Source: Campylobacterota bacterium
Lineage (GTDB): Bacteria > Campylobacterota > Campylobacteria > Campylobacterales > Sulfurimonadaceae
Reading direction: 5' to 3'
Assembly: GCA_040752835.1 (NCBI GenBank)
Contig: JBFMGG010000007.1
Span: 1-64,000, forward strand
Length of the DNA: 64,000 nt
Each line of letters starts with the position of its first letter. The first letter of the stretch is position 1. The notes under the pieces are model-generated. The model was not told where the DNA came from, did not search any database, and worked only from the letters and a program-made list of their open reading frames with translations. The position numbers and the translations under genes were made by a program. Below, one piece after another: positions 25,654 to 30,222 of the stretch.

Positions 25654-25731
25654 CGGGGCGTAGCGCAGTTTGGCTAGCGCACTACCTTGGGGTGGTAGAG
25701 GTCGCCTGTTCGAGTCAGGTCGCTCCGACCA
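25654..25731 (+). tRNA. tRNA-Pro (anticodon GGG)
   Basis: Acceptor CGGGGCG pairs with CGCTCCG before A-CCA at 25728-25731; CCA is encoded. The anticodon stem CTACC/GGTAG encloses the seven-base loop TTGGGGT, giving anticodon GGG at 25689-25691 with G37, as expected for proline tRNAs. The T-arm is GCCTG-TTCGAGT-CAGGT. A T-rich tail follows. Confidence 0.93.
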
Positions 25732-25832: not shown

Positions 25833-27767
25833 GTGCAAAGACAGATGAGATCGGTTCGGCTGGACGGGACGGACGTCGAGGCCAAACGCCGTGAACTCAG
25901 AGATTATTTTTACCAGAGCTACCAGCTGTTCGAATCGCTGTTCGAGTTATTCGCTTCGGACGAGGTGTTTTACCGCCAGTCCGAGCCGACGCGTCATCCG
26001 ATGATTTTCTATTTCGGCCATACTGCGGTGTTTTACGTTAACAAACTCGTCGCGGCGGGGGTGTTGAGCGAACGGATAAACCCCCGCTTCGAATCGCTTT
26101 TCGCCGTCGGTGTCGATGAAATGGTGTGGGACGAAGCGAGCGAGCGGTTCGCGTGGCCGGAGGTGTCGGAGGTGCGGGAGTATCGTAAGCGGGTCAAAGC
26201 GTTGGTCGAGGAGATGATCCTGACGCTGCCTATGCAATTGCCCATCACCCAAAACGATCCGTTCTGGGCGATCTGGATGGGGATTGAACACGAGCGGATC
26301 CATATCGAAACCTCCAGCGTTCTACACCGTCAGCTGCCGATTGAGCTGATCAAACCCCATGAAAACTTTTACCGTTGCACGAAAAGCGGCGCCGCGCCTG
26401 AGAATGGCCTTGTCCCCATACAAGGCGGGGATATCGTGCTGGGAAAAGGGGAAGCCGATTGGGGACTCTACGGATGGGACAACGAATACGGGGCGCGGTC
26501 TTGTGCCGTCGAAAGTTTTGAAGCGTCGAAGTACCTCGTCAGCAACGGCGAGTTTTTGCCGTTTGTACTGGACGGGGGATACGGCGACCTTCGCTGGTGG
26601 GATGAGGAGGGGCAAAAGTTTTTGCGCATCCGTAAAGCCGAGTGCCCGCCGTTTTGGATTCCGCAGGGGGATGGGACGTATCGGCTCCGGACGCTCTGCG
26701 AGGAGATAGCGTTTCCGGCGAACTGGCCGGTGGAGGTCAATGCCCTCGAAGCGCAGGCGTTTTGCCGGTGGAAAAGCGCGCGGGATGCTAAAGTTTACCG
26801 TTTGCCCGGTGAGGCGGAATGGTACCGGATGGTGCAGGTGTGCGGCATGGAGTCGCAGGTTTACGACGATGTGCGGGCCAATCTCAATTTTGCCCACTTC
26901 GCGTCATCGGTTCCGGTCGATACGTTTGCGCAGGGTCCGCTGTATGATGTCGTGGGGAACGTATGGCAATGGACGCAGACGCCGATCGAGGGATTCGAGG
27001 GGTTTGAAACCCATCCGTGGTATGACGATTTTTCCACGCCGACGTTTGATGGCAAACACAACCTGATAAAAGGGGGATCGTGGGCTTCGACGGGCAATGA
27101 GATCGTCGCCGCTTCCCGCTATGCGTTCCGTCGACATTTTTACCAGCATGCGGGTTTTCGGTACGTATGCGGAGGCCGCGTGGAAGAGAGGGAACACGCA
27201 GCGCTCATCGAGGACCCCGAAATCGTGGCGTTGTGCGAAGCGGGGTACGCGCAAGGGGACGGTTTCGCCGTTGCCGCCGGCGAGGCGATCGCGCCGTTCG
27301 CCGATGCGGGAAGCGTGCTGGAACTGGGGTGCAAAGCGGGGCGGTTGAGTCTCGAGCTTTCCCGCTATTTCGGGAACGTCGTCGGAGTCGACCGTTCCGC
27401 CCGCTTTATTGCGCCGGGGGTAGAGTTGTTGCGGGAAGGATCGATACGCTATCGCAGCGGGACGTCGATCCGAGAGATCGCGCTTGAAACGCTGGCTCTT
27501 CCTTCCGCTACGAAAAAGGTCGAGTTTTATCAGGCGGATATGCGCAATCTCAAACCCCACCTGCGGGGGTATGCATGCATCATCATCAATGCGGTTTACG
27601 AGCCGCTCGCCGATATCGAAGCGATTGCCCGTTCTTTGCTCCCGAGACTCACGGCAGGCGGGGCGGTGATCGCCCTCACCGATACCCCCGTGCGAAGCGA
27701 TGCGCGCGGCTTTGACTATGTCCGCGGTACAGAGACGGTGCGGGGGTACGTGAACGTATGGAACTAG
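25833..27767 (+). CDS. ovoA: Ovothiol synthase OvoA (sulfoxide synthase plus methyltransferase)
   Basis: A 644-residue fusion. The N-terminal DinB-like/iron part contains HERIHIE, an HX3HXE ligand set (His153, His157, Glu159). It is followed by a formylglycine-generating-enzyme-type sulfatase-modifying domain (about 190-445) with the NVWQW and KGGSW motifs. The C-terminal part (about 485-640) is a class I methyltransferase with VLELGCKAG. OvoA makes 5-histidylcysteine sulfoxide from His, Cys and O2 and later N-methylates the thiolhistidine. The methyltransferase fusion separates it from EgtB of ergothioneine synthesis. The GTG at 25833 has AAAGGA six bases upstream. It overlaps the OvoB-like gene by 10 bases, a strong operon sign. 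Confidence 0.9.
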   Translation: MQRQMRSVRLDGTDVEAKRRELRDYFYQSYQLFESLFELFASDEVFYRQSEPTRHPMIFYFGHTAVFYVNKLVAAGVLSERINPRFESLFAVGVDEMVWDEASERFAWPEVSEVREYRKRVKALVEEMILTLPMQLPITQNDPFWAIWMGIEHERIHIETSSVLHRQLPIELIKPHENFYRCTKSGAAPENGLVPIQGGDIVLGKGEADWGLYGWDNEYGARSCAVESFEASKYLVSNGEFLPFVLDGGYGDLRWWDEEGQKFLRIRKAECPPFWIPQGDGTYRLRTLCEEIAFPANWPVEVNALEAQAFCRWKSARDAKVYRLPGEAEWYRMVQVCGMESQVYDDVRANLNFAHFASSVPVDTFAQGPLYDVVGNVWQWTQTPIEGFEGFETHPWYDDFSTPTFDGKHNLIKGGSWASTGNEIVAASRYAFRRHFYQHAGFRYVCGGRVEEREHAALIEDPEIVALCEAGYAQGDGFAVAAGEAIAPFADAGSVLELGCKAGRLSLELSRYFGNVVGVDRSARFIAPGVELLREGSIRYRSGTSIREIALETLALPSATKKVEFYQADMRNLKPHLRGYACIIINAVYEPLADIEAIARSLLPRLTAGGAVIALTDTPVRSDARGFDYVRGTETVRGYVNVWN

Positions 27768-28936
27768 ACCCCTACAACGTCTTCATCGACCGCAGCGGCA
27801 CGAACGCCGAAAAATACACCCTTCGGGCCTCTTTGTTCGGTACCGAAGAGGTACGGCCGATGTGGGTGGCCGACATGGACATCGCGACACCCGAATGTGT
27901 CCTCGAAGCGATCAGGGAACGGCTTGCCCACCCGGTGATGGGATACGAGATTATGAGCGATGCGGCGTACGATGCCCAGATCGGATGGTTTGAACGTCGC
28001 CATGCGTTCACGATGGAGCGCGAATGGCTCAGCTACTCCCCCTCGGTCGTCGCGTCGATCGGGTGTGCGATCCGCGCGCTCAGCGGGGAAGGAGACGAAG
28101 TGATCGTGATGGACCCCGTCTATCCCCCTTTTTACACGATGGTCAAACACAATCGCCGAACCCTGATCGTCCATCCCCTCCGCCCGGACGAGACGGGGGT
28201 ATACCGCTTTGACCTTGATCGTCTCGCCTCGCAGGTCACCCCCAAAACGAAGATGCTGTTGCTGTGCTCGCCGCACAATCCGCTTGGGCGGGTTTGGTCG
28301 CGGGAGGAACTCGAAACGCTCGGTGCGTTTTGTCTTGAACGCGGGATCCGGATCGTCAGCGATGAGATACACTGCGATCTCGTCTACTCCCTCAACCGCC
28401 ATATTCCCACTGCGTCCCTTTCGCCTGCGCTGCGTGAGAATACCGTGATGCTCATCGGACCGGGGAAGACGTTCAACATGGCGGGATTTTCGATTTCGAC
28501 CGTCTGCATCCCCTCACATGAGCTGCGTGCGCTCTACGATGCAGAGCGTAAACGTCTGCACTGGGGAGAGGGGGCTTTGTTGTCCCACGTTGCCTTCGAA
28601 GCCGCTTATGCGCGGGGGGAGAGGTGGTATGCGGGGTTGATGGATCACCTGAATGCCAACGCCGAGGCGATCGTCACCTGGGCGTCATCCCGCCCGACGA
28701 TAAGCGTCGGCAAGCCCGAAGCGACTTACCTCGCCTGGCTTGATTGCCGCGCTTTGGGAATGGGGGACGGCGAATTGCGGGAATTTTTCGTCCGCGAAGC
28801 CAGACTGGGGCTGAGCCCCGGACTGGGATTCGGCAAAGAGGGGAGCGGGTTTATGCGGCTCAATTTCGCCGTCCCCAGAGGCGTTTTGGACGAAGCGCTC
28901 GAAAGTATGGGAAGGGCGATCGATGGAACGCGCTAA
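27758..28936 (+). CDS. PLP-dependent C-S lyase, probable OvoB
   Basis: A 392-residue MalY/PatB-type aminotransferase-fold enzyme. SPHNPLGR is the substrate/cofactor loop, and Lys237 in GPGKTFNMAG is the PLP lysine. MalY/PatB members are cystathionine beta-lyases. Directly behind ovoA and overlapping it, the best assignment is OvoB, which cleaves the OvoA sulfoxide to 5-thiolhistidine. Assignment rests on context, since the fold alone cannot tell the two. It overlaps the next gene by 14 bases. Confidence 0.75.
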   Translation: MELDPYNVFIDRSGTNAEKYTLRASLFGTEEVRPMWVADMDIATPECVLEAIRERLAHPVMGYEIMSDAAYDAQIGWFERRHAFTMEREWLSYSPSVVASIGCAIRALSGEGDEVIVMDPVYPPFYTMVKHNRRTLIVHPLRPDETGVYRFDLDRLASQVTPKTKMLLLCSPHNPLGRVWSREELETLGAFCLERGIRIVSDEIHCDLVYSLNRHIPTASLSPALRENTVMLIGPGKTFNMAGFSISTVCIPSHELRALYDAERKRLHWGEGALLSHVAFEAAYARGERWYAGLMDHLNANAEAIVTWASSRPTISVGKPEATYLAWLDCRALGMGDGELREFFVREARLGLSPGLGFGKEGSGFMRLNFAVPRGVLDEALESMGRAIDGTR

Positions 28937-29342
28937 AATCGATGCTTTTGTCGCCGAACATCATCTCCTCTCGCTCGCGACGTCGGGAGAGAGACTGTGG
29001 TGCTGCTCGGCGTTTTACGCGTATGATGCGGCGGGGGCTTCGTTCATTATCGCATCGGACGAAGCGACCGAACACATCGCGAATGTCTTGCGCAACCCCT
29101 CGGTGACGGGAACGGTGGCGCTGGAAACCAAAACGGTGGGAAAGATACGGGGGATACAATTTGCCGGGCGGATGGCTCGGGCGTCCGACGAGGAGGCCCG
29201 CCGTCTTTATTTCGGGAGGTTCCCGTACGCACGGGCGATGAATCCGACGCTGTGGCGGATCGAGCTCGATGAGGTTAAAATGACCGACAATACCCTCGGC
29301 TTCGGGAAAAAACTCACTTGGAAGCGTTCTGTTTCGGAGTGA
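28923..29342 (+). CDS. Pyridoxamine 5'-phosphate oxidase-like (YhbP/UPF0306-type) protein
   Basis: A 139-residue split-barrel flavin-binding protein of the PNPOx-like clan, resembling YhbP. Such proteins bind FMN, F420 or haem, and most have no proven substrate. It overlaps the OvoB-like gene by 14 bases, so it is translated from the ovothiol transcript and may act in thiol redox chemistry or PLP supply, which is inference. Its 3' end runs 29 bases into the convergent small cysteine gene. Confidence 0.65.
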   Translation: MERAKIDAFVAEHHLLSLATSGERLWCCSAFYAYDAAGASFIIASDEATEHIANVLRNPSVTGTVALETKTVGKIRGIQFAGRMARASDEEARRLYFGRFPYARAMNPTLWRIELDEVKMTDNTLGFGKKLTWKRSVSE

Positions 29343-29490
29343 AGTAGATACACTGTGCTCCGCTGGAGCTCAGGACGACCTGCGAGGGGATCATTCTCGA
29401 TTTGAAACCGTAGGCTTTGCAGCCGTGCGGCTGGTGCGCTTCCCACGTCACGAAATAATAGGCGCAGCGGTGACAGTTGATCTTTTGCAT
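29314..29490 (-). CDS. Small conserved Cys-rich protein (58 residues)
   Basis: Reading the minus strand from the ATG at 29490 gives 58 residues ending at a TGA at 29316. Four cysteines lie at positions 6, 9, 24 and 47. CHRCAYYFVTW, a PHGCKAYGFKS segment and PSQVVLSSSG...C resemble a small family seen in many bacteria, sometimes mislabelled as a uracil-DNA glycosylase. The Cys spacing suggests one zinc site. It overlaps the PNPOx-like gene tail by 29 bases in convergent orientation. A clean frame with ordinary codon use supports it as real. Function unknown. Confidence 0.75.
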   Translation of the reverse strand: MQKINCHRCAYYFVTWEAHQPHGCKAYGFKSRMIPSQVVLSSSGAQCIYFTPKQNASK

Positions 29491-29535: not shown

Positions 29536-30222
29536 ATGAATAAATTACTCTGCATGCTGGAACTGCAACAACGCCTCAACGACTCGACCAACGGCAAAGG
29601 ATGGGAAAAAGGGGTAACGAAAGACGGAAAACGGATCAACTGGCGCCGTTGCGTCTATATGGAGTGTGCCGAGATGATCGATTCGTTCGGATGGAAACAC
29701 TGGAAAAGCATCGCACAGCCCACCGATTACGCCAACCTGCAGATCGAGATCGTCGACGTATGGCATTTTATTATGAGCCTTGTCCTGGAGGACGGCATTT
29801 ACCGGGAGGGGGAAACTTTTGCCCAGATGGCGGAATGGATGTCCGAAACTGTAGGATATACCGAACTTTGCAAGGCGCGAGAAGGGGAATTCGATTCGGA
29901 CGAAGCATTGATGCTCAAAATCGAGATTCTGATGCGCCATGCCCTGCAGCCTGCGATCGACGGCGATCTGGAGAAAATGAGCGACGATTTTTTCAGGCTC
30001 GCGGCGATGGGAGGGCTCAACCTCGATACCCTCTATCGTCTTTACGTCGGGAAAAACATCCTCAACCAGTTCCGTCAGGACCACGGATACAAAGAGGGGC
30101 ATTACGTCAAGGTCTGGAACGGCGAAGAGGACAACAGCGTGATGAAACGCTCGTGGGAAGCCCATCCGGATATGACCCCGGATGAACTGTATGCGGCGCT
30201 CAAAGCCGTTTATCCGGCCTGA
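29536..30222 (+). CDS. dut: Dimeric all-alpha dUTPase
   Basis: A 228-residue dUTP diphosphatase of the MazG-like, all-alpha dimeric type found in Campylobacter and some phages, unrelated to trimeric Dut. The acidic metal-binding helix ECAEMIDSFGWKHWK (about 44-58) and EIVDVWHFI (about 71-79) are the diagnostic motifs. It hydrolyses dUTP to dUMP, lowering uracil incorporation and feeding thymidylate synthesis. It works in the same purpose as ung later in the window but is not linked to it. Confidence 0.9.
   Translation: MNKLLCMLELQQRLNDSTNGKGWEKGVTKDGKRINWRRCVYMECAEMIDSFGWKHWKSIAQPTDYANLQIEIVDVWHFIMSLVLEDGIYREGETFAQMAEWMSETVGYTELCKAREGEFDSDEALMLKIEILMRHALQPAIDGDLEKMSDDFFRLAAMGGLNLDTLYRLYVGKNILNQFRQDHGYKEGHYVKVWNGEEDNSVMKRSWEAHPDMTPDELYAALKAVYPA

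Follow-up and report, generated by a model that had tools for sequence, protein, structure and literature searches.

An ovothiol operon with a trimmed methyltransferase domain in Sulfuricurvum and its probable end product

Does an operon that encodes the sulfoxide synthase OvoA and a matching lyase end in ovothiol A? This question is raised by a locus of three overlapping genes in a stretch of 64,000 nucleotides (the window; positions 1 to 64,000 of contig JBFMGG010000007.1, assembly GCA_040752835.1), which the initial annotation, made from the sequence alone, had described as a compact operon for a complete ovothiol pathway. The source genome (2.13 Mb, 99.5% complete) is taken to be that of a Sulfuricurvum, a sulfur-oxidizing bacterium, as the named relatives of the window OvoA are Sulfuricurvum spp., and these relatives bear out the presumed origin from Campylobacterota. 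The methyltransferase (MT) domain at the C-terminus of this OvoA has been trimmed and has most likely ceased to act as a 5-thiohistidine N-methyltransferase, so that the product would probably be the antioxidant amino acid 5-thiohistidine and not ovothiol A; we put the probability of this reading at roughly 0.6.

The trimmed methyltransferase domain

A fused MT had been noted in the initial annotation, and such a domain is indeed present, but the description was incomplete: the score for the profile TIGR04345 is 100.1 bits (cut-off 170), and the match is limited to positions 4-168 of 242. When it is aligned with 26 full-length MTs, either fused or stand-alone OvoMs, the window domain is seen to be without the N-terminal FGVxNF loop, a second, short loop that follows the YRSG stretch, the NLIDR(L) motif, and the SPYTW, WxGGY and VIRETxRKxQH lid, while ELGCKAG, the VDRSARFI strand, FYQAD, NLKP and the final VW strand are retained. 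The 28 invariant columns that have been kept, of 87, comprise 16 of the 25 in the stretch that binds S-adenosylmethionine (SAM) and 12 of the 62 elsewhere (Fisher p = 1e-4, the columns not being independent). The same trimmed form is found in three further genomes (G094, G088 and G096) and is therefore not an assembly error.

Structural modeling predicted a seven-strand MT core, with a predicted template modeling score (pTM) of 0.71 for the whole protein and a predicted local distance difference test score (pLDDT) of 90.8 for the MT domain alone. The best PDB matches of the domain model are OvoA, OvsM and Sulfuricurvum OvoM (Z 20.5-22.6; the next match has 14.1), and a class I SAM-binding core fold is predicted on the basis of ELGCKAG, the pLDDT of 90.8 and a Z score of 22.0 to 9bxl. 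The latter is an OvoM of Sulfuricurvum sp. STB_99 (PDB 9bxl/9bxm/9bxn), which was compared by PDB titles and by sequence and structure alignment. It shares the MT fold and the SAM motifs with the window domain (187 residues aligned to the 244-residue 9bxl, root mean square deviation 2.4), but it is a stand-alone protein, keeps the lid motifs, and has no copy in the window genome. The search for another OvoM in that genome yielded only two non-fused matches of 26.1 and 25.6 bits. Because the fused MT is devoid of the putative substrate-binding segments and the genome lacks another OvoM, the earlier claim of a complete pathway cannot be upheld.

Within the trimmed clade (the window genome, G094, G088 and G096), the nonsynonymous substitution rate (dN) of the MT domain is 2.0-3.2 times that of the N-terminal domain in five of six pairs and 1.1 times in the closest pair, compared with ratios of 0.76-1.34 for full-length OvoAs (15 pairs). 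The ratio of nonsynonymous to synonymous rates (dN/dS) of the trimmed domain is 0.16-0.27 (NG86), at dS values of 0.9-2.3 that are partly saturated. Constraint on the domain is thus relaxed but has not disappeared, since the dN ratio is raised and dN/dS remains at this level. The same dN/dS values, together with the retained SAM motifs, the predicted fold, the open frame and the lack of a stand-alone OvoM that could relieve the domain in the four genomes with the trimmed form only, would also be compatible with a domain that still works as a 5-thiohistidine N-methyltransferase with a minimal pocket, in which case the operon would make ovothiol A. We regard this as rather unlikely, as the domain has lost, outside the SAM site, nearly all positions that are conserved among OvoM, OvsM and OvoA, and as one further Sulfuricurvum (G116) has a trimmed copy plus an intact OvoM, which is expected if the trimmed copy is inadequate.

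Sulfoxide synthase, lyase and the YhbP-like gene

The N-terminal part of the window OvoA matches TIGR04344 with 645.8 bits, well over the curated cut-off of 400, as well as PF03781 and PF12867, and the HX3HXE iron motif that had been placed at residues 153-159 was confirmed as H153, H157 and E159, which are invariant in 23 aligned relatives. Judged by these features, residues 1-446 form a sound sulfoxide synthase of the OvoA type. The best PDB match is OvoA_Th2 (8khq, 624 bits), which has the same sulfoxide synthase domains, HX3HXE and the pocket segment SRYAFRR, and aligns with the model of the window protein over 616 residues (Z 44.3); unlike the window domain, its MT is full and carries the lid. 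Identity as a type IV EgtB, with the operon serving ergothioneine synthesis, is extremely unlikely: the EgtB-IV structures 8vig and 8vih have no MT and match the window protein at 341 and 323 bits, but the match to 8khq is far stronger, EgtB-IV (8vig) aligns with YRNWFRP where the window has SRYAFRR, and EgtD was found in none of the 41 Sulfuricurvum genomes searched. This identity was therefore rejected.

The second gene encodes a lyase that matches TIGR04350 (PatB-family C-S lyases) with 526 bits against a cut-off of 340. It is adjacent to ovoA, on one strand, at all 36 other Sulfuricurvum loci that were read (from 36 of the 40 other Sulfuricurvum genomes), so that the arrangement is not due to chance. 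Among 200 genomes of the family, the lyase is present in 178 of the 187 OvoA-positive ones, some of which have weak or incomplete OvoA matches (such as G176 and G196, with E near 5e-4), and in 1 of the 13 OvoA-negative ones. Two of the latter, G158 and G166, have OvoB pieces at a contig edge, and a gap in the assembly may explain why ovoA is missing there; independent of these two, the lyase is absent from all four OvoA-negative genomes of high quality (completeness >= 90%, contamination <= 5%). Nearly all positive genomes have one such lyase (E <= 1e-40), and the next-best relatives inside the window genome are only 22-27% identical. The lyase is thus very likely OvoB, because it is tied to OvoA by gene order and co-occurrence; it resembles the OvoB of the ovothiol pathway in both respects and in family, from which its substrate is presumed. 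The initial grouping with OvoB is supported accordingly, and what stands of the proposed complete operon is an ovoA–ovoB operon with an OvoA-linked lyase, without the completeness of the pathway. One genome (G090, L039:577-2961, minus strand) has the OvoA sulfoxide synthase and OvoB in a single open reading frame (ORF) of 795 aa that lacks about the first 49 OvoB residues, which is either a natural fusion or an assembly join.

The third protein, initially annotated as PNPOx-like and as an unassigned partner, matches PF01243 (PNPOx_N) with 29.0 bits (cut-off 28.1) and NF002900 (YhbP, a family that we take to be UPF0306) with 140.9 bits; the latter value is under the curated cut-off of 176, and the protein is therefore related to the YhbP family without being called as one of its members. 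A sequence comparison with the PDB gave only chance-level matches to proteasome entries (E 0.23-0.71). In favor of a dedicated ovothiol-pathway enzyme, for example, a sulfenate or disulfide reductase, it can be stated that, in 29 of the 36 other Sulfuricurvum loci, the gene lies downstream of ovoB on the same strand at a distance of at most 150 nt, and that it follows an inserted DUF4010 gene in five more (it was not found in the remaining two). Nevertheless, the gene is retained in 9 of the 13 OvoA-negative genomes, including all four of high quality; in two of these four genomes it directly follows dxs at a locus from which ovoA and ovoB are gone (L096 and L097), and it is about 1.4 Mb away from ovoA in G010. 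At a further locus (L095, G003), gene calling showed none of the genes, yet a YhbP match was found in G003. As the gene is kept where ovoA and ovoB are absent, it is a conserved neighbor and not a dedicated partner; a role in the pathway is quite improbable, and this candidate was rejected. The inserted gene encodes a DUF4010/MgtC-like membrane protein of 424-429 aa (L040, L045, L057, L060 and L061).

The layout of the three genes, with overlaps of 10 nt (27758-27767) and 14 nt (28923-28936), was found as it had been described (Table 1). The dUTPase_2 gene is the usual next gene after the YhbP-like gene in most relatives. An ORF for 58 aa, which contains cysteine, lies antisense between these two genes (29314-29490, minus strand) and belongs to a cluster (c3) with 39 members across the fetched loci.

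Table 1. Features of the ovoA–ovoB–yhbP locus (window positions)
Feature	Position	Strand	Basis
tRNA-Pro (GGG), directly upstream of ovoA	25654..25731	+	ARAGORN
ovoA, 644 aa, GTG start	25833..27767	+	ORF; OvoA profile matches
OvoA sulfoxide synthase domain, residues 1-446 (DinB_2 + FGE-sulfatase)	25833..27170	+	TIGR04344, PF03781, PF12867, PDB 8khq
Trimmed C-terminal MT domain, residues 456-644	27198..27764	+	TIGR04345, alignments, models
SAM motif I ELGCKAG, residues 497-503	27321..27341	+	Alignment
Approximate site of ~46 missing residues (SPYTW...WLGGY...VIRETxRKxQH in full-length relatives)	27672..27713	+	Alignments; exact junction varies with the alignment
ovoB, PatB-family pyridoxal phosphate-dependent C-S lyase, 392 aa (very likely)	27758..28936	+	TIGR04350; co-occurrence with OvoA
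YhbP-like (PNPOx_N split-barrel) protein, 139 aa	28923..29342	+	NF002900, PF01243
dUTPase_2 gene, outside the operon proper	29536..30222	+	Profile matches; gene order in relatives

Methyltransferase states in Sulfuricurvum and other Campylobacterota

The 41 Sulfuricurvum genomes differ in their MTs: four have the trimmed form only, one (G116) has the trimmed form and a stand-alone OvoM, 19 have a stand-alone OvoM over the cut-off and no fused MT (partial in G132), and 17 have neither. All 17 keep ovoA and ovoB, nine of them are at least 97% complete, and the 3' end of ovoA was read in 15 (in G104 and G112 it is at or near contig edges). Thus, Sulfuricurvum does without the MT step elsewhere. 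The N-domain tree places the window clade as sister to all other Sulfuricurvum (99/96) and G116 as sister to an OvoM-only clade, and genomes that have neither MT fall among the OvoM lineages. Deletions are shared by G116 and the window clade, which also group together in the MT tree (100/98), and this suggests that trimming preceded their split.

A gene of the ADP-ribosylglycohydrolase family (PF03747, about 356 aa) lies directly upstream of the stand-alone OvoM at four loci (L076, L078, L079 and L085). It occurs in 16 of the 41 genomes, all of which belong to the 20 that have OvoM, whereas the 21 that lack OvoM are also devoid of this gene, and it forms one 613-aa ORF with OvoM in G029; possibly, it encodes an ovothiol-related enzyme.

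Similar trimmed MT domains recur in other Campylobacterota. An MT over the TIGR04345 cut-off is present in 148 of the 200 family genomes, and 11 have only a match under it (E <= 1e-12), one of which, a contig-edge fragment in G032, was left out of the trimmed set. Trimmed domains with real stops were found in G107, G142, G109, G018, G017 and G040, and the domain at L185 is also trimmed; in all of these, as in the window clade, the same three segments are gone and the SAM core is retained. The sole MT-less OvoA seen outside Sulfuricurvum is that of G011 (449 aa, real stop).

The N-domain tree requires five changes among 37 MT-bearing rows (G009 and G113, at contig edges, were left out, and L185 was counted as trimmed), and the N-domain data reject one clade of the 12 trimmed rows (approximately unbiased test, p-AU 3e-10), a test that is severe on a single origin, given that G116 and the window clade are separated by MT-less Sulfuricurvum rows. 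In the MT tree, where long branches meet, a single clade of trimmed domains is not rejected (p-AU 0.196). Repeated trimming and fewer events with recombination both fit these results. The recurrence of the same losses around a retained SAM core in several lineages, the rejection by the N-domain data and the purifying selection would be in accordance with a new job of the trimmed domain, either as a compact SAM-dependent MT with another acceptor or as a SAM sensor that regulates the sulfoxide synthase. This is unlikely in our view: the MT tree permits one clade and thus perhaps fewer events, relaxed constraint equally fits decay, and the proposed MT has no known acceptor.

The end product and its implications

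The reading that we prefer, loss of 5-thiohistidine N-methylation, implies the following pathway. The N-terminal domain of OvoA would join histidine and cysteine to 5-histidylcysteine sulfoxide, from which OvoB would release 5-thiohistidine, both steps being suggested by family and gene linkage. The MT for the step to ovothiol A has lost its substrate-side loop, the NLIDR motif and the whole C-terminal lid, with a SAM-binding Rossmann core that survives under purifying selection and is predicted to fold. The end of the pathway would be 5-thiohistidine or a derivative formed by another enzyme, and the YhbP-like gene is a neighbor carried along by conserved gene order.

Several points weigh against this reading. 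An MT domain that is still open, predicted to be folded and under purifying selection would be odd for a lost function, and sister lineages have deleted the whole domain. The kept SAM motifs make residual or altered methylation possible, and the methylation could be carried out by a distant MT that is encoded elsewhere. It should also be noted that the label "substrate-binding" for the lost OvoM segments is derived from their conservation and position.

Bypassing methylation has a precedent. According to one report (PMC12631010), some OvoAs cut short without MT occur beside a 5-thiohistidine N-acetyltransferase (5THNAT), mostly in Bacteroidota. The systems are alike in that N-methylation is bypassed or competed with, but the window OvoA keeps a trimmed SAM domain, and a search of the window genome (G000) with an OvoA-adjacent Draconibacterium GNAT, chosen by position, as the query gave no match at E <= 0.001. 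Two weak matches near 2e-4 in G057 and G106 were judged to be generic. A 5THNAT-like GNAT near OvoA was seen at 7 of 80 loci, all from Bacteroidota (L176, L181, L186, L193, L194, L197 and L199). The full-length OvoA MTs of these seven loci lack the RKxQH lid motif, which is possibly a marker of changed methylation.

A literature search, with most subscription journals outside its reach, retrieved no work linking Sulfuricurvum with ovothiol or ovoA with yhbP, and none on OvoM in the ovothiol sense among the best 20 of 60 matches; OvoM structures are public in the PDB.

The trimmed-MT ovothiol operon is a new form of a known pathway, with 5-thiohistidine or a derivative indicated as a possible end product. 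More tentatively, the MT may have been pared, in several lineages of Campylobacterota, to a compact and conserved SAM core that has ceased to methylate 5-thiohistidine and has a new role, in which 5-thiohistidine or an undescribed derivative would replace ovothiol. The presence of ovoA is usually taken to mean that an organism makes ovothiol, and this inference probably fails in the window species and in much of Sulfuricurvum. The different states (full MT, trimmed MT, stand-alone OvoM and no MT at all) offer natural comparisons that bear on the role of the ovothiol methyl group.

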